64,000 nt of DNA. Origin: Methanothermobacter sp. (GTDB lineage: Archaea; Methanobacteriota; Methanobacteria; Methanobacteriales; Methanothermobacteraceae). Shown here in pieces: positions 30,222 to 42,036 of the stretch; the first letter of the stretch is position 1, and each line of letters begins with the position of its first letter. Below the pieces are notes generated by a model. The model saw only the letters and a program-made list of their open reading frames with translations, was not told the origin of the DNA and ran no database searches. The stretch spans positions 217,671-281,670 of the forward strand of contig NZ_JASFYG010000003.1 of assembly GCF_030055435.1 (NCBI RefSeq), given 5' to 3'. Both the position numbers and the translations under genes were made by a program.

Positions 30222-30803
30222 TCAGTATTGAAGTACTCTTTGGGTTTTAAAGGGTTTCTGCGTGTGGATTGTGCGGACTTTATCTGCACTTTCAGGAGGT
30301 TTAAGGGGTTTTTCCATGTGGACAGTGTTGAGTTCGTTCCCGGTGTCAAGGGTCACCCGGTAACCCATTGAGAGCCAGAATTCAAGTGCACCCCCCACAT
30401 GCTTGTGCGTATGGAGGTACATCCTTCTATACCCCATTCTGGCTGCATGGGCCTCTGCGATACCAACAAGGAGTGATGCAATCCCCCGTCTCCTGTAGTC
30501 CTCATGCACGAAGACCCTCCAGAGACCTGCTGTTGTATCTGGATCATAACTGAGGCCCTCAAATTCACGGTCATAGGCGCGGAGTCCCAGGGTCCCGATT
30601 ACCTTTCCACCCAGCGAGGCAGAGATGAATGTGTTTCCCGGTGGATTGAGATAGTGTTCCCTGAATTCAATGATGTCCCGGTGGTAGTCGGGTATGTACC
30701 CGTAGCCAAATTCCCGCCTGATCATATCAAACAGGAATCTTCTTATGGATTCAATTTCACTTTCTGTTTGGGGAATGGTAACCAGAATAATATCAACCAC
30801 CAT
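30222..30803 (-). CDS. GNAT-family N-acetyltransferase
   Basis: A 193-residue GNAT acetyltransferase. The acetyl-CoA loop is VHEDYRRRGIASLLVG (R/Q-x-x-G-x-A), preceded by IGTLGLRAYD, and the last strands contain GYRRMYLHTHKHVGGALEFWLSMGY. About 35 C-terminal residues are extra. A TATA-like stretch lies about 22 bp before the ATG, so the message may be leaderless. It is divergent from the nicotianamine-synthase-like gene across 124 bp. The substrate is unknown. Confidence 0.88.
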   Translation of the reverse strand: MVVDIILVTIPQTESEIESIRRFLFDMIRREFGYGYIPDYHRDIIEFREHYLNPPGNTFISASLGGKVIGTLGLRAYDREFEGLSYDPDTTAGLWRVFVHEDYRRRGIASLLVGIAEAHAARMGYRRMYLHTHKHVGGALEFWLSMGYRVTLDTGNELNTVHMEKPLKPPESADKVRTIHTQKPFKTQRVLQY

Positions 30804-30805
30804 TC

Positions 30806-30892
30806 AGTATTAATTTTTAAGGATATATATGCCTCATAGTAATACATGATTCCATACACATATTATATATGCTGTGAAGTCTTATAAAGACT
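30806..30892 (+). promoter_or_regulatory. Divergent promoter with palindromes before nicotianamine-synthase-like gene
   Basis: GTATTA (30807-30812) and TAATAC (30840-30845) form an inverted pair flanking a GGATATATATG TATA-like stretch. A perfect AGTCTT-ATA-AAGACT palindrome (30878-30892) straddles a second TATA-like TTATAAAG, 36-50 bp before the ATG. Occupancy of the latter would block TBP. The AGTAATAC at 30838 resembles the AGTAATAAT motif found before the following surface genes. Confidence 0.45.
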
Positions 30893-30927
30893 GCTGTTTA
30901 ATTAATTACCATCATGGAGAACTCCAC

Positions 30928-31725
30928 ATGAGCTGTTACATCTACTGGAATAAGATAAAGAGGATAGCATCCAGGCTTGAGGGGATGGACTACCACTTCG
31001 ACAGGATGGATACATCCAGGGTCATACCCCTCCTGGATGAGATCGAGGAGATAGCCCATGATTCATCCATTGACTTTGAATCAGCCAGGCACATACTTGA
31101 CGATGCTGAGATGAACCATGCGCTGAGGCTCATAAGAACCTTCTATGTTAACCTTGGCATGAAACTTGAACTGGAGAAGGCAGAGGAGGTTAGAAATTCA
31201 GACTCTCCATGGAAAACCCTGAAATCGTTCTATTTCTACCCAAGGTACCTCCAGCTCCTCAAAAATGAGGCTGCCCTTGGTAGATTCAGGAGGGGGGAGC
31301 GCGCTGTATTCATTGGGGGCGGGCCACTACCCCTCACAGGGATACTCCTTGCACATATATATGGCATGAGCGTACATGTTGTTGAAATTGAACCTGAAAT
31401 AGCTGATATATCCCGCCAAGTGATAGAAAAACTTGAACCAGGAGATGTGGATGTGGTCACTGGTGATGAGACCGCACTGGCGGATCTTGATTTTGACGTT
31501 GTTATGGTGGCTGCCCTTGCAGAACCAAAGAGGAGGGTCTTCAGAAATATACACAGGTACGTGGACCCTGATACCAGGGTTATATACAGGACTTACACAG
31601 GAATGAGGGCGATTCTCTACGCCCCCGTGACTGATGAGGATGTTACTGGATTCAGAAGGGCGGGGATTGTTCTGCCTTCAGGTAAGGTTAACAATACCTC
31701 AGTGCTTGTTTTTAAGTGCCCGTGA
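30928..31725 (+). CDS. Nicotianamine synthase-like (thermonicotianamine synthase)
   Basis: About 265 residues of the NAS family. A helical N-terminal domain (1-115) is followed by a Rossmann SAM-binding domain (AVFIGGGPLPLTGILLA, 126-142; VVEIEPEIADIS, 151-162; VVTGDE). The archaeal enzyme condenses aminopropyl groups from SAM with glutamate to a nicotianamine-like chelator, thermonicotianamine. E81 and Y107, which I recall as active-site residues of the studied Methanothermobacter enzyme, are both present. The start ATG 30928 is chosen by homology and GGAG spacing; an upstream GTG at 30874 is less likely. It opens the metal-related surface cluster. Confidence 0.93.
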   Translation: MSCYIYWNKIKRIASRLEGMDYHFDRMDTSRVIPLLDEIEEIAHDSSIDFESARHILDDAEMNHALRLIRTFYVNLGMKLELEKAEEVRNSDSPWKTLKSFYFYPRYLQLLKNEAALGRFRRGERAVFIGGGPLPLTGILLAHIYGMSVHVVEIEPEIADISRQVIEKLEPGDVDVVTGDETALADLDFDVVMVAALAEPKRRVFRNIHRYVDPDTRVIYRTYTGMRAILYAPVTDEDVTGFRRAGIVLPSGKVNNTSVLVFKCP

Positions 31726-32086
31726 TGTTTCTGTTATGATCAAATCAGAAACATCTGAATTTTTTTAAGGATCGCCTTATCTTTTATTACCATTCCGGCA
31801 CTCCAGACCCGATAATTATTATGAATATTAAAATAGAAAATATTAAATATGCTTGGTTTTCAATTTTAAATATAACACCATTATGGTGTTTGATAATAAA
31901 TTTCCCTCCAGCAATCAGTTCATGGGACCTTCCCATGAATCCCCTCTTTTTTAACTGAAACTAAGTATTACATTTTGCCTTTTATCAGCCTCTAAAGTAT
32001 TAACAAAATAATTATATATGTTATTACTCCTACTACATTCTGTACATTATTAAACATTACAGAAATTAAAGGAGGTGAAAAATGTT
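31726..32086 (+). promoter_or_regulatory. Long AT-rich leader and promoter region of the FmdE-like gene
   Basis: 361 bp without a gene. It holds a perfect 8-1-8 palindrome AACACCAT-T-ATGGTGTT (31874-31890), a perfect 9-3-9 hairpin TTCATGGGA-CCT-TCCCATGAA (31919-31939) followed by CTCTTTTTT, and several copies of AATTATTA/GTTATTAC (31813-31821, 32007-32027). A TATA-like ATTATATATG is at 32011-32020. A strong GGAGGTGA (32071-32078) precedes the start. The hairpin with T-run may terminate the upstream transcript. Confidence 0.5.
31919..31953 (+). terminator. Hairpin with T-run after the NAS-like gene
   Basis: A perfect 9-bp stem with a 3-nt loop is followed within 8 nt by a run of six T. It lies 194 bp after the NAS-like stop and 134 bp before the next start. 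It fits an intrinsic-type terminator, but could also be an operator for the FmdE-like gene. Confidence 0.4.
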
Positions 32087-34996
32087 ATGAGAAGGCAGTA
32101 TTTCATGGTTTTCATGGCTCTTCTCGTTGCTATCGCACTGACGGGTTCAGTGAGCGCAGTAGACACAGCATGTGAAGTGGGGGTTAAGGTGACCTACGAG
32201 TACGCAGACGACAACCCCCGCATCAACCCTGACATAAACTGTATCACCGATGCAAACGGATCAAAGATCAACTTCACAAAGACCTTTGACCCGGCAGCCA
32301 ACATGACAAAGATCATCTTCAATTACCAGAACATCACAAACACCACTAAATTCCGGATAAAGGTAACGGCACCGGGCTACAGGGACCTAGTACATGAATT
32401 CACCCTATCAACCAACCCGGCGAATCCACTGGATACCAAATACTACGCACTGCTTTCACTCAAAATGAACGCCACAGACGCCTACAAACTGGGAAGGGAG
32501 ATCACCAGGAGGGCAGATCAGATCCTGAACTTCTCGAAGGGAAACGTCCTCGTCATAACAACTGCAGGTATTGTCAAGTACAAAAACAATACCACAGAGG
32601 ACGTTATTGAGGGGATACTAAACCAGGCAGGTGGCCGTGTAACCTATGGTAAGGGGAACCTGCTTGTAATAAGGAAGTCACCTGTTGACCCGCTGGACAC
32701 ATTCTTCATACTACAGAGGGGCAGCACACTGGTGGGTGTTTACTTCAAGAATGCAAGCACATCACCGGTTGTAATCAAAACAGTCAACGGAAAACCAGTT
32801 TACACAATCGACCTTCTAAAGAACATGACTGAGGCAAACTGGAACCTTCTGGTAAGCAAATACGGAAACTACGCGTTCCCGGTTGCAAGTCTTGCAAACG
32901 CATGGATGCAGGGCGCACCATCTGATCTCCTCAGGGCCGCATCATTCCATGGTCACATGTGCCTCGGTACCATCAGCGGATATGCAATGAGCCTCACACT
33001 GTTAAAGTACTACCCACCGGTCATGGACTTCACCAACCCTGGATCACCAGGTGAGATAACAAGTTACGTGACAGTGGGTGTCCCAGGGGACTCAGATGAC
33101 GATGCACTCCTGATGTTCCTTGACACCACACCAGGTAAGGGAGGATCCTACAGCGGATTCAACACCACGGCTACAGGTGCTGACACAAACCTTGTTGGTT
33201 TCATAAGGTGGAACCCCAACACCCTCAAGGGTGACCTCATAGTGATGAAGTTCGACAAGGAGGCACTCAGGAAACAGTTCCAGCAGCAGACAGGCAAAAA
33301 AACAGAACTCGAATTCAACGCATGGCTCATATCCAGGGTGAAACAGGACCCAACATCCCTTGTGACAATAGTGAGGGAACTTAAGGGCCTCAATGCGACC
33401 CACTACTACTATCTCCTGGGAAGTGAAAACGGTGCCAACGTGACAGATAAAGTCAACAACATAACCTACCAGATTCCACCACAGGTAGCCCATGGACTTG
33501 ACATGGCATACATAGACAGCCTTGGACTTCCAAATGCAACCCGTGAAAACGGAACCTTCACATGGGGTAACCTGACATACGAGCAGATCAGGAAGATCGG
33601 TGCTGACGCAGCCAACCTTGCAAAGCAGTTATTCCTTACAGAGAAAGGTATAAACCTTGAAAGGGACGACAGGGACCTGGTGGTGCTCACATCAGCCGGT
33701 TACTCAAGGGTTAACGGTCAGGATATGAGTGCTGCCTGGGACGGAGTATTTGATGTTCTTGGTTCAAGGTTAAGTAGGGCAACACTTCTCCCGGTTCACA
33801 GACCTCTCTGGAAACCACTCTGGTTCACATTCGTCCTCAGGGGCTATGATGGGGTGACAATGGATGCGGTCTACATCTACTATGACCCAACAACCGGGCA
33901 GCTGATTGCAAGCAATGCATCAGACGGTAAATTTGTGAATGACATCGGACCAAGAACCCTTAACAGCACACAGCTCAGCAGCAAGGTCTCAAAGGTCTTT
34001 GCAAAGGATGGCTGGTTCAACATACAGAGCATAGCAAATGCATGGAGACACGACCCACCATATGACCAGATACTGACATTCCTCTTCCACGACCATGCAT
34101 GTCCAGGCGTCTCACCAGGTTACCTGATAACAGAGTACATATTCAAGAACTACCCCCTCAAGGAAAACGAGAACTACATCTACCTGGGTAACACCATCTA
34201 CTGCAAGGACGACGCCATAGTCTACCGCCTCGGGGTCTCACCTGGACAGGGAACCTACTTCAACCTGCGTGTTCCTGGATCAGAGAACGACCCTGAGGAT
34301 AAGTATGCATCTGGAGGTAACATTGAGGGAATCCTTGTTATTTGGGACAACAAGAACAAGGTTGGTAAGGCAGTGGTCCTGGACTTCAAATGGCCGAACT
34401 TTGATGTGAGCGACTGCGTCACCAGCGATGCGAAGAGGGAAAAACAGATAGCAGGTTTCATAAGCCTCTACAAGGGTGAAACACCAAGTTATCTGATCTC
34501 GGGACCTGTCGTAACCTATGACGCTGAGAGGTACATAACTGAGAGTGAACTTCAGATGATCCTCTCAGGTGCCGGTGGTCAGAACCCCATCGCCTATGTG
34601 AAGGGGCTACCTGCAAACAGGACACTTGAGGACCTCATTCCTGTGAACAATGGTGGAAGTCAGAACGGAAACCAGGGTGGTATACCTGGTGGTTCAACAG
34701 GTGGCTCCACAGGTGGTTCAACCGGTGGTTTACCCTCAGGTTCCCATGGTAATGCAGGCCATGCAGGTTACACACCAGGTGTTGATTACAGTGCTTCACC
34801 GGCTGATGTGAGTGCAGCATCTGAAGTTTCAGAGGAACCTGCAACAACTGAGGGTAAGAAGGCCTATGAGGTTACAAATGCAACCTCCACTTCTGGCGGC
34901 GCTGACTCCTCATGGTACGTCTATGGTATCGTGGGTGTCCTTGTGGCTGCTGGACTTGTGGCCTTCGGATTCCTCAGGGGCGTAGCAGGAAAATAA
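32087..34996 (+). CDS. Secreted, anchored protein with two FmdE-type modules
   Basis: About 969 residues. The signal peptide is FMVFMALLVAIALTGSVSA. An N-terminal region of about 265 residues is unrecognised. Two FmdE-like modules follow, each with an HxHxC motif: FHGHMCLG (H288, H290, C292) and FHDHACPG (H668, H670, C672). Each is followed by the family's D-D-A and GKG/GQG elements (DDDALLMF...TPGKGG; KDDAIVYR...SPGQGT). A Gly/Ser/Thr-rich linker and one C-terminal helix (YGIVGVLVAAGLVAFGFL) anchor it outside the membrane. FmdE modules bind zinc or other metals. ATG 32087 is 9 nt after GGAGGTG. The role as extracytoplasmic metal carrier is inferred from neighbours. Confidence 0.82.
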   Translation: MRRQYFMVFMALLVAIALTGSVSAVDTACEVGVKVTYEYADDNPRINPDINCITDANGSKINFTKTFDPAANMTKIIFNYQNITNTTKFRIKVTAPGYRDLVHEFTLSTNPANPLDTKYYALLSLKMNATDAYKLGREITRRADQILNFSKGNVLVITTAGIVKYKNNTTEDVIEGILNQAGGRVTYGKGNLLVIRKSPVDPLDTFFILQRGSTLVGVYFKNASTSPVVIKTVNGKPVYTIDLLKNMTEANWNLLVSKYGNYAFPVASLANAWMQGAPSDLLRAASFHGHMCLGTISGYAMSLTLLKYYPPVMDFTNPGSPGEITSYVTVGVPGDSDDDALLMFLDTTPGKGGSYSGFNTTATGADTNLVGFIRWNPNTLKGDLIVMKFDKEALRKQFQQQTGKKTELEFNAWLISRVKQDPTSLVTIVRELKGLNATHYYYLLGSENGANVTDKVNNITYQIPPQVAHGLDMAYIDSLGLPNATRENGTFTWGNLTYEQIRKIGADAANLAKQLFLTEKGINLERDDRDLVVLTSAGYSRVNGQDMSAAWDGVFDVLGSRLSRATLLPVHRPLWKPLWFTFVLRGYDGVTMDAVYIYYDPTTGQLIASNASDGKFVNDIGPRTLNSTQLSSKVSKVFAKDGWFNIQSIANAWRHDPPYDQILTFLFHDHACPGVSPGYLITEYIFKNYPLKENENYIYLGNTIYCKDDAIVYRLGVSPGQGTYFNLRVPGSENDPEDKYASGGNIEGILVIWDNKNKVGKAVVLDFKWPNFDVSDCVTSDAKREKQIAGFISLYKGETPSYLISGPVVTYDAERYITESELQMILSGAGGQNPIAYVKGLPANRTLEDLIPVNNGGSQNGNQGGIPGGSTGGSTGGSTGGLPSGSHGNAGHAGYTPGVDYSASPADVSAASEVSEEPATTEGKKAYEVTNATSTSGGADSSWYVYGIVGVLVAAGLVAFGFLRGVAGK

Positions 34997-35058
34997 ACAC
35001 CCCAATTATTTATTTTTTTATCCGCAGGATTATTACTTTTCCTCGATTGATATTTAAA

Positions 35059-35126
35059 TTAAGTAATATTTCAAGTTAAGTAATAATTTATTTTTAAAGT
35101 ATTCTGTATAATGTAATAATAATTTA
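35059..35126 (+). promoter_or_regulatory. Repeated AGTAATAAT-type motifs before the CobN-like gene
   Basis: The 193 bp between the two surface genes hold TTAAGTAATA twice with a 17-bp offset (35059-35068, 35076-35085), extended to AGTAATAATTTA at 35079-35090. A third related copy, GTAATAATAATTTA, is at 35113-35126. AAAGGAGGTGA precedes the gene start at 35190. The same core occurs before the other units of this cluster. Confidence 0.5.
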
Positions 35127-35189
35127 TTTTAATGACATAACTCAGAGGGGTTACTGTAAATTTAAAAAAATAAAAGGAGGTGAAAAGTC

Positions 35190-38100
35190 ATGAGAAAACA
35201 GCTCTTTACACTGACAGCAGTTCTCTTCATGATCATGCTCTGCCAGACAGTGGCAGCTGCAGATAACAGCACCGCAGGAGGTGATCCCGGAAACCTAACA
35301 GTGAACAACACACAGGAGATCAGGGATCCTGTCGTACTTGTCATACACTCGTCAACCAGTTCCAAGATGACCAATGATGCGGCAAAGAAGGTCATGGACC
35401 TCATAAACCCCTCACAGCCAGGATACAACCCACAGAATAAGTCAACATGGACGGTCAGGTTTGAGGTAAGGACCACCACACAGATATCAAGGATGAACCC
35501 CTCTGAACTTAAAAGCCTCATTGAGTCTGCGGATATCGTTATCGCAGAGTGGCTCTTTGACTCAGGTAACTTCAGGAATGTTATGCGTGATTACCCTGAA
35601 ATTGCATCTAACAGACCAAACAAGATATTCATTGTCCTTGAAAGTGACCCGGATCTCACAAACATGTCACAGATCAACGGTGTACGCATATTCCAGGGTA
35701 TAGATGCCTCGGTTATCGGTAACACAGATACAAAGAACACTATCCTCTATGACCTCAAAAACTCCAACGAGGCACGCCTGAAGGCCTATGTTAATACGTA
35801 CCCGCAGCTTGCACCCTGGGTGACCTATGGTCTCTACTATGCAAAGAAGGGAACCGTGAACTATGAAAACCAGTTCAAGCTGCTTCTTAAGAACTTCACG
35901 GTGATGAATGGGGGCACCTGGCCATCTGAATGGGAACCTGCAGCACCTATAACCATTCCAGCGGAGATGCTCTACCGTGACGGCAGGGTCTTTACCAGCC
36001 TCGCTGATTACCTTGCAGCATACCCACTCAACGCATCACGGCCCACCATTGGAATAGCTGGCCTTGATAGCGTTCTCCTTTCAGGGGATATGGCCCACTT
36101 TGACAGCATAATAGCCAGGCTCACAGCAAGCGGAATGAACGTGATACCCGTTGTCGGGGCGTATTCCGGTGTTAACGGTACACAGCCACTCAACATCTAT
36201 TCGGCGATGGTCAAGTTCTTCGTCTATGACCCTGCAAACCCATCAAGGGTTATCACAGCAGCGGAGTATGAGGCCAACCCCTCAGCCTACAGGTACAGGA
36301 TAGACGCCCTTGTGAGTTTCACAACATTCACACTGGGGTCTGGCTTCGTGAATCAGACCGCAGCTCTCCTTGAGAGAATGAATGTGCCTGTATTCAGGGC
36401 AATGATATCAACAAAGAGGGAAGAGGGTGAATGGTTAGTATCAGAGGACGGGCTTCTCTGGAGTGACACCTACTACCAGATAGCCATTCCAGAGACCCAG
36501 GGGATAATAGAGCCCATATTCGTTGCCGCGCCAGCAAAGAGTATTGACAGTATAACAGGGGTTGAGATAGTCGCATACACGCCGATAGATGAGCAGATGA
36601 ATTACCTGGTACAGCGAATCAGCAACTGGGTCAGGCTCAGATACCTGGCAAACTCCCAGAAAAGAATAGCACTCATCTACTACAATTACCCGCCGGGTAA
36701 GGGTAACATAGGTGCCAGTTACCTCAACGTACCTGAAACTCTCGTTGAAATACTAAGGGCACTCCAGAGCTCAGGGTACAATGTTTCAGGTTTTCCTCAG
36801 AGTGCAGATGACCTTGTGAAGCTCCTCACCGAGAGGGGAATAAACGTTGCAACATGGGCACCGGGGGAACTGGAAAAACTTGCAAATAAAACCTCAATCA
36901 TCCTCTGGGATGCAGAGGAATACTATGCATGGTTCCAGACCCTGAACCCGATTGCAAGAAAACAGGTCGTGGAGGGTCCTGTGGGTTACATTGAGGAGAT
37001 GGTTAAGCTAGCGCTCAGCTACGTTTCCAGTGACACCGCATACACCGCAGCCCTGAATACCCTTGATAAGTGGTCCTCTGAGATGATATCACTTGCAAAT
37101 ACCTACCCTGAGAAGTCACAGCAGGCATCAGTTCTAATAAGAAACATGACAGAAGCACTGAAGGCAGTTCTCAACAATGCAAGGACAGGTCAGAGCACAG
37201 ATGCGCCGTGGAGCATGTTCTATAACTTCAAAAATGAATTCCAGAGCCTGGCAGTCCCTGGGTTCAATGGATGGGGCGCCCCGCCAGGTAATGTCATGAC
37301 AGTGGAGAGAAACGGCAGAAAGTACATCGTCATACCAGGTATAATATTTGGCAACGTTTTCATTGGCCCTGAACCCCAGAGGGGATGGGAGGCAGACGTT
37401 GATAAACTCTACCACAGCACGGTCGTGGCACCACCACACCAGTACCTTGCCTGGTATGCATGGGTTAACACGGTGTTCAATGCGGATGCCCAGGTCCACA
37501 TAGGAAGACATGCAACATACGAGTGGCTTCCAAGAAAGCAGGTCGCACTCAGCAACTTTGACTTCTCACAGATATGTGCCGGTACAAAGCCCTCAGTCTA
37601 CATCTACATCATGGACGGTGTTGGTGAGGGGATACAGTCCAAGAGGAGGGGCTATGCGGTTATAGTGGACCACCTCACACCCCCAATGAAGACAACACAG
37701 CTCTACGGGGACCTCTCAGAACTCAGAGCCCTCATTGATGATTATACAAAGACACCCGATGCAAGCCCACTAAAACAGGAGTACTTCAATTCAATAAGGA
37801 ACATGGTCATAAAGCTCAATGTAGCAGCAGAGATTGGTATCAGTCCAGATAACTTCACTGCAGAGGACATTGAAAGGGTTGAGGATTACCTTGTGGTCCT
37901 CCAGCAGACACTCATGCCTGTCGGTCTCCATACCTTCGGGTTAAGGTGGACCGATGAGGAGATAGCCCTCCTTGCAGCTGCAATGGTATCCTCTGATGGC
38001 GGCCCATCAAGTCCCTCACTGCAGAGGCTCATAGCATCTCTGAAGGGATGGAACTTTGACAACCTCACGGCACTGCAGGCAGAGGAGCTCAACAATATCA

Positions 38101-40130
38101 CCATAAGCTGGGTACTCCAGGTCATGGGTGGCACACCACCAGCGGACCTTACAAACAATTCACAGGTAATTGAGCTTCTCAACAGGGCACGTGAGTACGC
38201 AGCACTGATAAGTCAGAGCTTCAGTTCAGAGATGAACTCACTTCTCGATGCACTGAACGGTGGATTTATAACACCAAGACCAGGAAATGACCCTGTAAGG
38301 AACCCCTCAGCTCTTCCAACAGGCAGCAACTTCTATGCGGTATCAGAGAACCTGATGCCAACAAAGACAGCATGGAATCTGGGTAAACGCCTGGCTGACA
38401 TGGCACTTGCACAGTTTGACAGGATCCCTGAGAAGGTGGCAGCGGTTGTCTGGTGTGTTGAGACGGTGCGTGACGACGGTACCATGGTCTCATTTGTGCT
38501 GAGGCTGATGGGTGTGGAGCCAACATGGTCATCCACGGGGTCGGCTTCCAACCTTAAGGCGACGCCACTCTCACAGCTACTCGCAGATATCAATGCAGTA
38601 AGATCTGCATCTGGACTTTCAAACTTCACAGAAAGGCCCAGGGTGGATCCGATTGTAACAACAAGTGGACTCTTCAGGGATCTGTTCCCGAGGCTCCTCA
38701 TCAACATGGACAGGGCCTACAGGATTGCCCTTGCCGCTTCATACACTGAGATCGTCGCGTCCTATCCGTCACTTAAAACCTCACTTGACCATGTGCTGCA
38801 GACACTTGTGTATGCCAAGTATACAAACTTCAGGGGAAGCGAGCCCCTCACAACCAACTACATTGCACTCCACTGGATCAATGATACCCTTAGGTACATG
38901 CAGGCTGGTCTTAACGCCACGGATGCAGGTGAAATCGCCATAACAAGGATCTTTGCACCACCTGTTGGTGATTACGGTGCAGGTGTCAGTAAGGGTACAG
39001 AGGTATCATGGACCTGGAACGACAGAAGCGAACTTGCAGACATCTACTTCAACAGAATGAGCCATGCATACAGTGAACGTTCCTGGGGCGTTTCAATGCC
39101 CGAAACCTTTAAGGAACTCCTCAGGGGTATTCAGACGGCCTACCACAGCAGAAACACCAACCTGTATGGGGTTGTTGATAACGACGACTACTTCGACTAC
39201 TTCGGCGGTCTTTCAATGGCCATCGAGATGATGAACAATGGAAGGGCCCCGGAACTCTACGTACTGAGATATGCAAACCCAGGCAATCCCAGGGTCATGT
39301 CACTGAAGCAGTTCATAGCCATTGAATACAGAACAAGGTACCTGAATCCCGAGTGGATCAGGGCAATCATGAATGAGGGGTATCAGGGGCCAAGGACCAT
39401 AGCAAAGTACACATCCCACCTGGTGGGATGGGAATACACGGTGCCTGAACTCCTTGACAGTGGCTTCTGGGACGAGTACTATGACGCTGTGGTTGCAGAT
39501 AAATACAATCTCGGACTGAAGACAGCCTATTCAAAGAACCCCTACGCTGCCATGGACATACTGGCACACTTTGCAGAGATGGCAAACAGGGGCCAGTGGA
39601 ATGCCAGGAGTGAGCAGCTTGCATTCATCGCAGAGTGCCTTGGAAATTACGTTGCTGAGAATGGTGTTTCATGTTCAGGGTCAGTCTGCGGTGACAGGGA
39701 ACTGATGAAGTGGATCAGCCAGTACATGTCCTCTGATCTCAGGAAAAAATTCACTGCAGCCCTCTACGCGGCAACAGGGGCGTCGGTGTTTGCACCTGAA
39801 CCATCCGGTGATGTGAATCCAGGTGAGAATCCATCCACAGGGCCCACGACAGGTCCTTCAGGCCCTTCAGCCAGGGGTGGCGGATCCTCTGGAAGAACCA
39901 CCGCTGATGGTTCTGCTGGAAGAACCGCTGCGGCTTCCCAGGCAGCTGTTTCAGCATCTTCACAGGATTCAGCCGGTGAAGAGGCCGGTCAGCAGAAATC
40001 CTATGAGGTGAAAGAGACACCTTCAGCGGTTAATCAGAGAACAGAGTTCCCGTTATATGGAGTAGCGGGCATAGTGGCCATACTGGTACTTGTGGGTGTG
40101 GGATACTTCCTTGGACCTGGAAGGAGGTAG
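35190..40130 (+). CDS. Giant secreted CobN/Mg-chelatase H-like protein
   Basis: A 1646-residue protein with a signal peptide (LFTLTAVLFMIMLCQTVAAA), so the chelatase-like body is predicted outside the cell. CobN/BchH hallmarks are ALIYYNYPPGKGNIGASYLNVPET (about 491-514), the His-containing HIGRHATYEWLPRK (H770, H774), and KRRGYAVIVDHLTPP. Classical CobN reads VHxGTHGTxEWLPGK, so two glycines are replaced here. The C-terminus is a Pro/Gly/Ser linker plus one membrane helix (YGVAGIVAILVLVGVGYFLG). CobN inserts cobalt into corrin rings in the cytoplasm with ATPase partners; an anchored exported form more likely binds or exchanges a metal or tetrapyrrole. Confidence 0.88.
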   Translation: MRKQLFTLTAVLFMIMLCQTVAAADNSTAGGDPGNLTVNNTQEIRDPVVLVIHSSTSSKMTNDAAKKVMDLINPSQPGYNPQNKSTWTVRFEVRTTTQISRMNPSELKSLIESADIVIAEWLFDSGNFRNVMRDYPEIASNRPNKIFIVLESDPDLTNMSQINGVRIFQGIDASVIGNTDTKNTILYDLKNSNEARLKAYVNTYPQLAPWVTYGLYYAKKGTVNYENQFKLLLKNFTVMNGGTWPSEWEPAAPITIPAEMLYRDGRVFTSLADYLAAYPLNASRPTIGIAGLDSVLLSGDMAHFDSIIARLTASGMNVIPVVGAYSGVNGTQPLNIYSAMVKFFVYDPANPSRVITAAEYEANPSAYRYRIDALVSFTTFTLGSGFVNQTAALLERMNVPVFRAMISTKREEGEWLVSEDGLLWSDTYYQIAIPETQGIIEPIFVAAPAKSIDSITGVEIVAYTPIDEQMNYLVQRISNWVRLRYLANSQKRIALIYYNYPPGKGNIGASYLNVPETLVEILRALQSSGYNVSGFPQSADDLVKLLTERGINVATWAPGELEKLANKTSIILWDAEEYYAWFQTLNPIARKQVVEGPVGYIEEMVKLALSYVSSDTAYTAALNTLDKWSSEMISLANTYPEKSQQASVLIRNMTEALKAVLNNARTGQSTDAPWSMFYNFKNEFQSLAVPGFNGWGAPPGNVMTVERNGRKYIVIPGIIFGNVFIGPEPQRGWEADVDKLYHSTVVAPPHQYLAWYAWVNTVFNADAQVHIGRHATYEWLPRKQVALSNFDFSQICAGTKPSVYIYIMDGVGEGIQSKRRGYAVIVDHLTPPMKTTQLYGDLSELRALIDDYTKTPDASPLKQEYFNSIRNMVIKLNVAAEIGISPDNFTAEDIERVEDYLVVLQQTLMPVGLHTFGLRWTDEEIALLAAAMVSSDGGPSSPSLQRLIASLKGWNFDNLTALQAEELNNITISWVLQVMGGTPPADLTNNSQVIELLNRAREYAALISQSFSSEMNSLLDALNGGFITPRPGNDPVRNPSALPTGSNFYAVSENLMPTKTAWNLGKRLADMALAQFDRIPEKVAAVVWCVETVRDDGTMVSFVLRLMGVEPTWSSTGSASNLKATPLSQLLADINAVRSASGLSNFTERPRVDPIVTTSGLFRDLFPRLLINMDRAYRIALAASYTEIVASYPSLKTSLDHVLQTLVYAKYTNFRGSEPLTTNYIALHWINDTLRYMQAGLNATDAGEIAITRIFAPPVGDYGAGVSKGTEVSWTWNDRSELADIYFNRMSHAYSERSWGVSMPETFKELLRGIQTAYHSRNTNLYGVVDNDDYFDYFGGLSMAIEMMNNGRAPELYVLRYANPGNPRVMSLKQFIAIEYRTRYLNPEWIRAIMNEGYQGPRTIAKYTSHLVGWEYTVPELLDSGFWDEYYDAVVADKYNLGLKTAYSKNPYAAMDILAHFAEMANRGQWNARSEQLAFIAECLGNYVAENGVSCSGSVCGDRELMKWISQYMSSDLRKKFTAALYAATGASVFAPEPSGDVNPGENPSTGPTTGPSGPSARGGGSSGRTTADGSAGRTAAASQAAVSASSQDSAGEEAGQQKSYEVKETPSAVNQRTEFPLYGVAGIVAILVLVGVGYFLGPGRR

Positions 40131-40205
40131 GCCCACCATAATTTATTTTTTAGAAAACATTAAATATCAGATTTAGTTTAATTTTAATAAAAATTGTTTG
40201 AATGA

Positions 40206-40306
40206 ATTATTACTCATAGGGGGCTAATAGTAATAAGAAATCTGGTATTAAAATAATGCTTTAATACTGCAGAATAGTAATAATTTAATTTATATAGTAA
40301 TTATTA
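40206..40306 (+). promoter_or_regulatory. AT-rich operator-like region before the CPCC/TolQ/ExbD-like operon
   Basis: Copies of the AGTAATAAT core occur at 40228-40237 and 40276-40287, with inverted copies at 40206-40214 (ATTATTACT) and AGTAATTATTA at 40296-40306. TAATAATT (40278-40285) and AATTATTA (40299-40306) form a perfect 8-13-8 inverted repeat, 28 bp before the start codon. The geometry recalls ribbon-helix-helix metal regulators such as NikR, but that identity is a guess. Confidence 0.45.
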
Positions 40307-40333
40307 TAAAGTTAAAAAGAGAAGGTGTGGAAC

Positions 40334-41044
40334 ATGGACATGGCAAACCTACTGTGGCAGGCGGGAATCCTATCGGTTTTACTGATATTTGGCGTGAAGA
40401 TTGGACTGGCAATGGGTTTTGCGGGGCTATCAAGGAAGATGGCAGCCTTGATAACTGCGGGTTACGGTCTGGGTATATATGGCCTCTCGGCACTTGCAAA
40501 TGCCTACATGAACTCGATTCAGGGCTTCTTCAACACCTACAGTTCACTGATAACAATCATAATGGCATCTATCCTCATATTTGCCGGTGTGCACACCCTC
40601 CGTGAGTGGAAGGAACACAGGAGGGATACAGCAAAGACTGCGTGCGTTGCAATGGTGGCGCCCTGTCCCTGCTGCTTCGGGGCGGTGATAGTCAGCATAA
40701 TACTTGTATCGCCCATAATCGGTGTATCAGCAATCACAATCGGCAAATATTCCGGGATAATTCTGGCAGCCTTCATAGCGTTATTCTATGTATTCGCCAA
40801 TGGAGTTGCATCAGCAATCAACAAACCCTACCCTGTTCTGCTGGGCAACTTCATGCTTTTTGCCGGTCTCTACTTCCTGACAGCTGCCATTGTGCTTCCA
40901 AATGTGAACAGCGCCATGAGCATGAAGATGACGCCACTGACGGTTCCAGGCATAAACACCATAATATATGTTGCGCTGGGGACACTGGCGCTCATGGGAC
41001 TTGGAATTTACCTTAACAAGAGAAAGAGCACTTTCATAGAATAA
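40334..41044 (+). CDS. Polytopic membrane protein with CPCC motif (DUF2162-like)
   Basis: A 236-residue protein with about six to seven membrane segments. A conspicuous APCPCCFGAVIVS motif (C111, C113, C114) starts the fourth segment, and C104 is just before it. The family is found in methanogens beside CobN-like, TolQ-like and DUF2149 genes. The Cys cluster in the membrane could bind a metal ion or do thiol redox. ATG 40334 is preferred over GTG 40325 because GAAGGTG lies at proper spacing. First gene of a three-gene operon. Confidence 0.78.
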   Translation: MDMANLLWQAGILSVLLIFGVKIGLAMGFAGLSRKMAALITAGYGLGIYGLSALANAYMNSIQGFFNTYSSLITIIMASILIFAGVHTLREWKEHRRDTAKTACVAMVAPCPCCFGAVIVSIILVSPIIGVSAITIGKYSGIILAAFIALFYVFANGVASAINKPYPVLLGNFMLFAGLYFLTAAIVLPNVNSAMSMKMTPLTVPGINTIIYVALGTLALMGLGIYLNKRKSTFIE

Positions 41045-41060
41045 GGAGAGGTGATATGAT

Positions 41061-41741
41061 ATGGTTGCAGTACCCGGCAGTGAAATACTGAGCGGCGCAC
41101 TACACGTTGTCTCCCAGAGTCTCCTAATACCTGTTATAGCGGGGCTCCTGTTATTCATGGTCTATGCAATAATAACCCTTGGCGGGCTAATGTCAGAGTA
41201 CTCTGGAAGAATAAGGACTGACATCAGGGAACTGGAATCAGCTATAAAGTCAATTTCCAATCCAGGAACCCCTGAGAGGATAATTGAGGTTGTAAATTCA
41301 ATGGAGATACCGCAGAGCCAGAAGGAGGTCCTTACAAATATTGTGGAGACTTCAGAACTGGGACCCAAATCAAGGGAGGCTCTTGCAAGGAAACTCATAG
41401 AGAACGAGGAGCTCAGGGCTGCAAAGAGCCTCGAGAAGACGGATATCGTGACAAGGCTCGGACCAACCCTTGGTCTCATGGGGACACTCATACCCATGGG
41501 GCCCGGCCTGGCAGCCCTCGGTGCAGGGGATATAAATACACTGGCCCAGGCCATCATCATAGCCTTTGACACAACAGTCGTGGGCCTCGCATCAGGGGGT
41601 ATAGCCTACGTAATCTCAAAGGTCAGGCGCAGATGGTATGAGGAGTACCTCTCAAACCTTGAGACCATGGCCGAGGCAGTGCTGGAGGTGATGGATAATG
41701 CCGCTCAGACGCCGGCGAAAACTCCTGTCGGATCAAAATGA
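41061..41741 (+). CDS. MotA/TolQ/ExbB-type proton channel protein
   Basis: A 226-residue protein with three predicted membrane segments (about 20-42, 132-153, 163-186) and a cytoplasmic loop between the first two. The last two segments carry the family pattern [15 protein letters not shown] and [19 protein letters not shown], with the Thr pair T171-T172 at the position of the conserved TolQ/ExbB threonine. Such proteins form pentamers around a dimeric ExbD-like peptide and convert ion flow into mechanical work. The next gene overlaps its 3' end by 44 bp. Confidence 0.9.
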
Positions 41742-42036
41742 AGAGGACCCGATGGCCGGAAGCGCAAACCTGGTTGATGCCATGCTGGTCCTGTCTGTGG
41801 GTTTCCTCATATTCCTGGTACTCTCATGGAACATGCAGAATGTTGTATTTGCTGACATGACCCCACAGGAGCGTCAGGAAACCATGGAGGCAATGAAAAG
41901 GGCAGTTGAGGTTCAGAAGGGCCAGGAACTCAACAACACTCCCGAGACCAGTTCGGGGTCCGGCCAGGGGTACGTTGAGATGGGAACCGTTTACAGGGAT
42001 CCCAAGACGGGTAAGCTGATAATGGTTCAGGGGTAG
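41698..42036 (+). CDS. One-helix ExbD/TolR-like partner (DUF2149)
   Basis: A 112-residue protein with a basic cytoplasmic N-terminus (PLRRRRKLL), one membrane helix (about 25-44, [20 protein letters not shown]) and an external domain of about 65 residues. D27 at the start of the helix, followed by MLVL, resembles ExbD/TolR, where IDVMLVLL carries the essential proton-binding Asp. The domain family is DUF2149, without assigned function. Overlap with the TolQ-like gene supports complex formation. Ends in GKLIMVQG. Confidence 0.82.

Follow-up and report, generated by a model that had tools for sequence, protein, structure and literature searches.

The window examined here, a stretch of 64,000 nucleotides from Methanothermobacter sp. 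(contig NZ_JASFYG010000003.1), carries a close series of genes that we explain, with moderate confidence, as a nickel-regulated surface system for metal capture, energised by an ExbB/ExbD-type motor. Six predicted genes, all on the plus strand, were confirmed by Pfam searches and encode in order a nicotianamine synthase (NAS)-like enzyme, a surface protein with two FmdE modules (FmdE2), a CobN-like protein, a DUF2162 protein, an ExbB-like protein and a DUF2149 protein. How active methyl-coenzyme M reductase and [NiFe] hydrogenases can be is determined by the supply of nickel. The initial annotation of this DNA had listed the same six genes in close order on one strand, and the Pfam matches fall in that very order; what had to be corrected is the start of NAS, most likely at 30919, and the organisation, with intergenic gaps of about 350, 194 and 195 bp followed by three tightly coupled genes indicating four transcription units (NAS; FmdE2; CobN; DUF2162-ExbB-DUF2149) and not one operon. 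Gene content, topology, conservation, homology to the bacterial proteins HmuU and HmuV, a predicted operator shared with nikMNQO and a shared protein tail are all read from sequence, and it is the metal, the substrate, proton conduction, transport and coupling that we infer. The features are as follows.

30919-31725, plus strand: NAS-like enzyme, ortholog of archaeal MtNAS (PF03059; PDB 3fpe/3o31, E about 1e-150)
32075-34996, plus strand: FmdE2, secreted and anchored, two FmdE modules (PF02663; alignment; weak Foldseek match to 2glz)
34850-34993, plus strand: FmdE2 juxtamembrane tail KAYEV and C-terminal membrane helix (sequence)
35190-40130, plus strand: CobN-like protein of the class I chelatase superfamily, secreted and C-terminally anchored (PF02514; HIGRHAT, aa 770-776; DNDDYFDYFGG, aa 1330)
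39987-40127, plus strand: CobN juxtamembrane tail KSYEV and C-terminal membrane helix (sequence)
40325-41044, plus strand: DUF2162 polytopic membrane protein with APCPCC motif (PF09930)
41061-41741, plus strand: ExbB/TolQ/MotA-type channel subunit, HmuU homolog (PF01618; G-x-x-x-G-L-x-G-T-x-I-P-x-G and pore-helix TT)
41698-42036, plus strand: DUF2149 protein, HmuV homolog, ExbD-like (PF09919; one helix, invariant Asp in NLVDAMLVL)
30808-30844, unstranded: inverted repeat TATTAA-N25-GTAATA between NAS and a GNAT gene, 1 mismatch (dyad search)
31966-32002, unstranded: inverted repeat TATTAC-N25-GTATTA upstream of FmdE2, 1 mismatch (dyad search)
35031-35068, unstranded: exact inverted repeat TATTAC-N26-GTAATA upstream of CobN (dyad search)
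40208-40282, unstranded: two dyads upstream of DUF2162, exact TATTAC-N16-GTAATA (40208-40235) and TATTAA-N25-GTAATA (40246-40282) (dyad search)

A predicted operator in common with nickel transport

The link to nickel comes from an inverted repeat. Half-sites of the form AGTAATA/TATTACT stand upstream of CobN-like genes in 9 of 12 cases (shuffled sequences gave a mean of 1.0 and a maximum of 4), a count that is superseded by a test of the full dyad. Exact copies of TATTAC-N25/26-GTAATA occur at five sites in the genome, with none for the reversed control, and these lie upstream of the window CobN gene, of the CobN-like genes L011 and L014 and of a CbiM operon (C1:360440), with the fifth in the interval that separates nikM from the CO dehydrogenase genes, where the transporter corresponds to the proposed NikMNQO, MTH1704-1707 (PMC3087415). 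Once a single mismatch is tolerated, the dyad is present at each of the four transcription units of the window, that of NAS among them, and at 7 of 12 targets; of 232 background genes only 4 have it (p = 2.6e-8), and two of these are the gene divergent from NAS and a target gene in truncated form. A survey of about 116 loci yielded 46 exact dyads, not one of which falls within a gene, and 4 for the reversed control, all within genes. For most of the 46, the gene that follows at a distance of 30-230 bp is a CobN, FmdE2, DUF2162 or CbiM-operon gene or one for a large secreted protein. A second family of the order also keeps the dyad ahead of DUF2162 (G003 and G009, and by position G006 and G012). 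The genome has three NikR genes, and we infer that NikR is the regulator acting at the predicted operator. Just upstream of one of the three (L257:7007-7459, minus strand) there is a single TATTACT half-site. The initial annotation had left the metal as nickel, cobalt or a metal-chelator complex, and it is the nickel option that gains a link, through the predicted operator common to this system and nikMNQO and through the CbiM genes in FmdE2 clusters described below.

The motor and the outward-facing proteins

The window ExbB-like protein matches MotA_ExbB (PF01618, E = 1.8e-10), has the expected hydrophobic segments and, on alignment, retains the invariant TT of the pore helix, and the DUF2149 protein (PF09919, E = 2e-24), encoded by the one DUF2149 gene of the genome, has a single helix with an invariant Asp. 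These conserved pore residues bear out the ExbB/ExbD-type pair that had been proposed. In Pfam the DUF2149 protein matched its own model only, without a match to ExbD/TolR (PF02472), and its likeness to ExbD is one of architecture and of the transmembrane Asp only. The DUF2162 protein (PF09930, E = 1e-72) has the motif APCPCC; sequence searches of the PDB returned no relative of it or of DUF2149, and Foldseek found no significant fold for its model (pLDDT 78).

Both FmdE2 and the CobN-like protein begin with a hydrophobic signal and end in a membrane helix followed by a basic terminus, in keeping with the surface location first suggested for them. FmdE2 contains two FmdE stretches (PF02663, E = 5e-25), each with an invariant HxHxC on alignment (H292/H294/C296 and H672/H674/C676), and its model (pLDDT 68) places the FmdE structure 2glz among the top Foldseek ranks but weakly, at E = 0.056. 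A second FmdE2 paralog in the genome (L272:6172-8861, minus strand) is split in two frames of 600 and 219 aa and has the same tail. The CobN-like protein of the window, with 1646 aa (PF02514 CobN-Mg_chel, E = 2e-274), is one of nine encoded in a genome that has a single motor, and every member of the set has both a signal and a C-terminal anchor; none looks cytoplasmic, a location that the initial annotation had named among the findings that would refute its idea.

Some 20-25 residues before their C-terminal helices, FmdE2 and the CobN-like proteins share the motif K-[AS]-Y-E-[VI], in spite of unrelated ectodomains. A profile of this tail, run against the whole genome, gave 11 matches at 3e-17 or better, namely the nine CobN-like proteins, FmdE2 and the split FmdE2 paralog, the next match standing at 0.025. 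Similar motifs occur in other genomes on several motor-linked proteins with other ectodomains, where enrichment of YE[VIL] tails within 3.5 kb of a motor relative to the rest of the same loci was not significant (p = 0.19) in a test weakened by the many "far" proteins that come from the same clusters, so that the claim for the tail rests on the search of its own genome. In HmuS, the bacterial relative discussed below, most copies, though not every one, show K-K-E-E-[IML] at the corresponding position, a related motif that is suggestive only. We take the tail to be a candidate docking box for the motor, with a role comparable to that of the TonB box; it may alternatively be read as a sorting signal.

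Conservation across the Methanobacteriales

Of 90 Methanobacteriales genomes, 83 encode DUF2149, with one to five copies each, and 100 DUF2149 loci were retrieved for neighbourhood counts. ExbB shares the directon of DUF2149 in every one of the 100, DUF2162 in 80, CobN in 29 and FmdE2 in 17, and in its 29 directons CobN usually appears in the arrangement CobN-DUF2162-ExbB-DUF2149. The CobN-like, DUF2162, ExbB-like and DUF2149 genes are thus a unit conserved across the order, and the co-occurrence that the initial annotation had proposed to look for extends across genera. CbiM (PF01891), the S-component of nickel/cobalt energy-coupling factor (ECF) importers, is no more than 12 kb away in 10 of the 20 loci with FmdE2 and in 1 of the 80 remaining loci (Fisher p = 1e-7), and two genomes bring all the parts together, in the orders NAS-FmdE2-x-CbiM-x-CobN-CobN-DUF2162-ExbB-DUF2149 (G034) and FmdE2-x-CbiM-x-[GNAT]-NAS-CobN-DUF2162-ExbB-DUF2149 (G071). 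At three loci two small anchored proteins of about 140-190 aa flank a CbiM that has no adjacent ATPase (L254:7957-9544; L048:8840-10518; L063:6833-8475), and these are possibly new accessory parts of a nickel ECF transporter.

The place of nicotianamine synthase

The window NAS scores 89 bits against a curated cut-off of 27 for PF03059 (E = 3.5e-25) and aligns along 265 residues with the archaeal (thermo)nicotianamine synthase of known structure (E = 3e-151); it is the ortholog of MtNAS, and the literature searched held no mention of MtNAS in the genomic or regulatory context of a surface motor. That NAS is a bystander to a system made of CobN, FmdE2 and the motor is a variant compatible with our explanation, though a doubtful one. 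NAS is near only 5 of the 100 motor loci, and its tight linkage is limited to a few genera; against this stand the imperfect N25 dyads that precede NAS in other genomes as well, with one or two mismatches in the window genus and in g16, and the exact dyad that lies roughly 350 bp upstream of an unlinked NAS in two g7 genomes. NAS would then share the predicted regulon also in genomes where it lies apart from the other genes, and its inclusion in the system by the initial annotation survives as a predicted shared regulon, close linkage being confined to those few genera. A GNAT acetyltransferase gene is divergent from NAS or beside it in three genera (window 30222-30803, minus strand; L047:11921-12397; L048:3607-4146), with an intergenic dyad common to both genes in two of the three; its product might modify the metallophore.

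A possible general motor for surface proteins

Several observations weigh against a system dedicated to nickel. CobN lies within 8 kb of only 32 of the 100 motors, and in other genera motors adjoin surface proteins of beta-helix, Ig-like and propeller type that have nothing to tie them to metal, so that metal is not the only business of the motor. Where genera are AT-rich, the dyad is no more frequent genome-wide than its reversed control, and position alone supports it there. NAS and the window CobN are, moreover, dispensable in two genomes of the same genus (G010, locus L259, and G017, locus L066), where frameshifts or stops interrupt both of them and the reading frames of FmdE2 and of the motor genes are open; the joint loss fits a common role for the two. 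The entry of MTBMA_c10550-10570 as three CDS (PMC3087415) is in line with these broken genes.

It may be asked, then, whether the motor serves surface proteins in general, in adhesion, passage through the wall or gliding-like movement, with metal the business of one client. We consider this unlikely. The surface proteins linked to the motor in other genera do include beta-helix, Ig-like, DUF11 and propeller types, and some of these end in a comparable YE[VIL] tail, but in the window genome the tail occurs only on CobN-like proteins and FmdE2, and the predicted operator ties both to nikMNQO. The ExbB-DUF2149 motors that lack CobN and stand beside large beta-helix, Ig-like or propeller proteins (L052, L053, L054, L055, L061, L062, L070 and others) are an observation in their own right, and they hint that surface systems driven by such motors form a larger family in archaea.

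Relation to HmuS and to other chelatases

The hmu operon of the Bacteroidota encodes the de-chelatase HmuS followed by HmuT, HmuU (ExbB) and HmuV (PMC12583661, PMC10434189). In 55 hmuS loci retrieved for comparison, the order downstream of hmuS is polytopic HmuT, ExbB (HmuU) and a DUF2149 protein (HmuV), which is the archaeal order; the archaeal ExbB profile detects HmuU at about 1e-41, and HmuV, described in 2026 as a protein without known relatives (PMC13227078), belongs to DUF2149 (Pfam 8e-35; hhalign 2e-10). No relationship of DUF2162 to HmuT was detected (hhalign probability 0.95%). The 2025 paper on HmuS left open the role of archaeal HmuS/CobN/ChlH homologs and recorded that archaea lack complete hmu operons (PMC12583661); in the window neighbourhood neither receptor nor hemophore (HmuR/HmuY) was found.

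The system could be an archaeal HmuS-type de-chelatase that takes heme or another tetrapyrrole for its iron, a reading that we regard as quite unlikely. HmuS is the closest solved structure to the window CobN-like protein (4e-117), ahead of CobN and ChlH, the order of the operon is the same, and the active-site His of the superfamily is present, with HIGRHAT (aa 770) aligning with HmuS HFGTHG. At the second site, HmuS LSLDHxxEFMGG (His1209), the window protein has DNDDYFDYFGG, with Asp replacing His, and on alignment the heme-site residues Met79/His254 and the Met-rich insertion are absent. Lacking these diagnostic residues it is not HmuS, and in a tree whose reference set drew only ordinary CobN/BchH sequences from a plasmid search it falls outside the HmuS, CobN and BchH clades; by sequence it is a relative of HmuS and not a member. 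The predicted operator, too, indicates nickel and not iron. Three paralogs, L010, L013 and L014, do carry the HmuS-type LDxDHNxEFLGG with the second active-site His; the apparent frameshift of L014 sits in a run of N, and the gene was not counted as broken.

Acquisition of cobalt or corrinoids in place of nickel would suit the CobN ancestry and the FmdE2-linked S-components, which match CbiM models, below equivalog cut-offs. We hold it to be very unlikely, as the cobalt-type cbiM of the genome (TIGR00123) has no dyad upstream and the nikM beside CO dehydrogenase has one. That the protein is a cytoplasmic chelatase for cobalt or nickel in B12 or F430 synthesis, as superfamily membership would allow and as was proposed for MTH673 (Kaster 2011, PMC3087415), is scarcely credible given the signal and anchor on all nine copies, a gene broken in M. 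marburgensis-like genomes and, in place of the cytoplasmic location, cob genes and CobST of a functional cobaltochelatase, a secreted, anchored protein with no cob genes adjoining.

A proposed mechanism

Of the overall idea put forward in the initial annotation, the surface location, the motor pair, the co-occurrence and the nickel link have stood, and the action of the motor and the capture of metal or tetrapyrrole are kept here in conditional form. In the nickel-regulated system that we favour, the anchored CobN-like and FmdE-like proteins would bind metal or metal complexes outside the membrane, candidate ligands being nickel tetrapyrroles or the nickel complex of a nicotianamine-like chelator made by NAS. 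The ExbB-like/DUF2149 channel, together with DUF2162, would use the ion gradient to exert force on these outward-facing proteins, docking through the conserved juxtamembrane tail and bringing about conformational change, de-chelation or release, and the freed metal would enter through Nik/CbiM-type ECF transporters of the same regulon. In a more specific version, which is rather doubtful, the stator pair docks on the tails of anchored chelatase-like proteins, replaces the AAA+ ATPase of Mg/Co chelatases and strips nickel from extracellular complexes such as F430, such coupling, and not TonB receptors, being ancestral for HmuU/HmuV. A search of the genome for ChlI/CobS-type ATPases gave only partial AAA+ matches.

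Comparison with known systems

With CobN and the Mg-chelatase subunit ChlH the window CobN-like protein shares the superfamily and the His of the catalytic core, and it differs in its secretion and anchoring, its separate clade and the lack of cob genes beside it. NikMNQO/CbiMNQO ECF transporters and the NikR regulon share the predicted operator, and CbiM genes lie inside FmdE2-motor clusters; those transporters are ATP-driven importers, whereas the window system would be an extra surface layer. The Bacteroidota hmu operon is like the archaeal system in its order (chelatase, polytopic protein, ExbB, DUF2149), in an anchored ectoenzyme of the class I chelatase superfamily, in the homologous HmuU/HmuV and in the basic C-terminal membrane tail of HmuS behind a short conserved motif. 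The archaeal system, however, has no HmuY/HmuR and no outer membrane, its third gene is not detectably HmuT-like, its window CobN is without the second active-site His, the heme-site residues and the Met-rich insertion, and the module is associated with FmdE2, NAS, CbiM and a nickel-type operator. The Methanobacteriales do carry the S-x-U-V core, with as many as five or six DUF2149 copies in a genome, and the data link it to nickel. Like TonB-ExbB-ExbD and TolQRA, the window system has a putative proton-channel pair in which pore-helix Thr and a transmembrane Asp would power work across the membrane; unlike them it has no TonB, TolA or outer-membrane receptor, a single membrane and a DUF2149 shorter than ExbD. 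The "TonB-like principle without an outer membrane" of the initial annotation has a bacterial precedent that the annotation did not name, for hmuS-U-V of the Bacteroidota forms the same module, and the window system would be its counterpart in a single-membrane archaeon. As there is no outer membrane, the ExbB/ExbD-like pair must work on a partner that is not a TonB receptor, and a long-standing question on such motors becomes testable in an organism that can be grown in mass culture.

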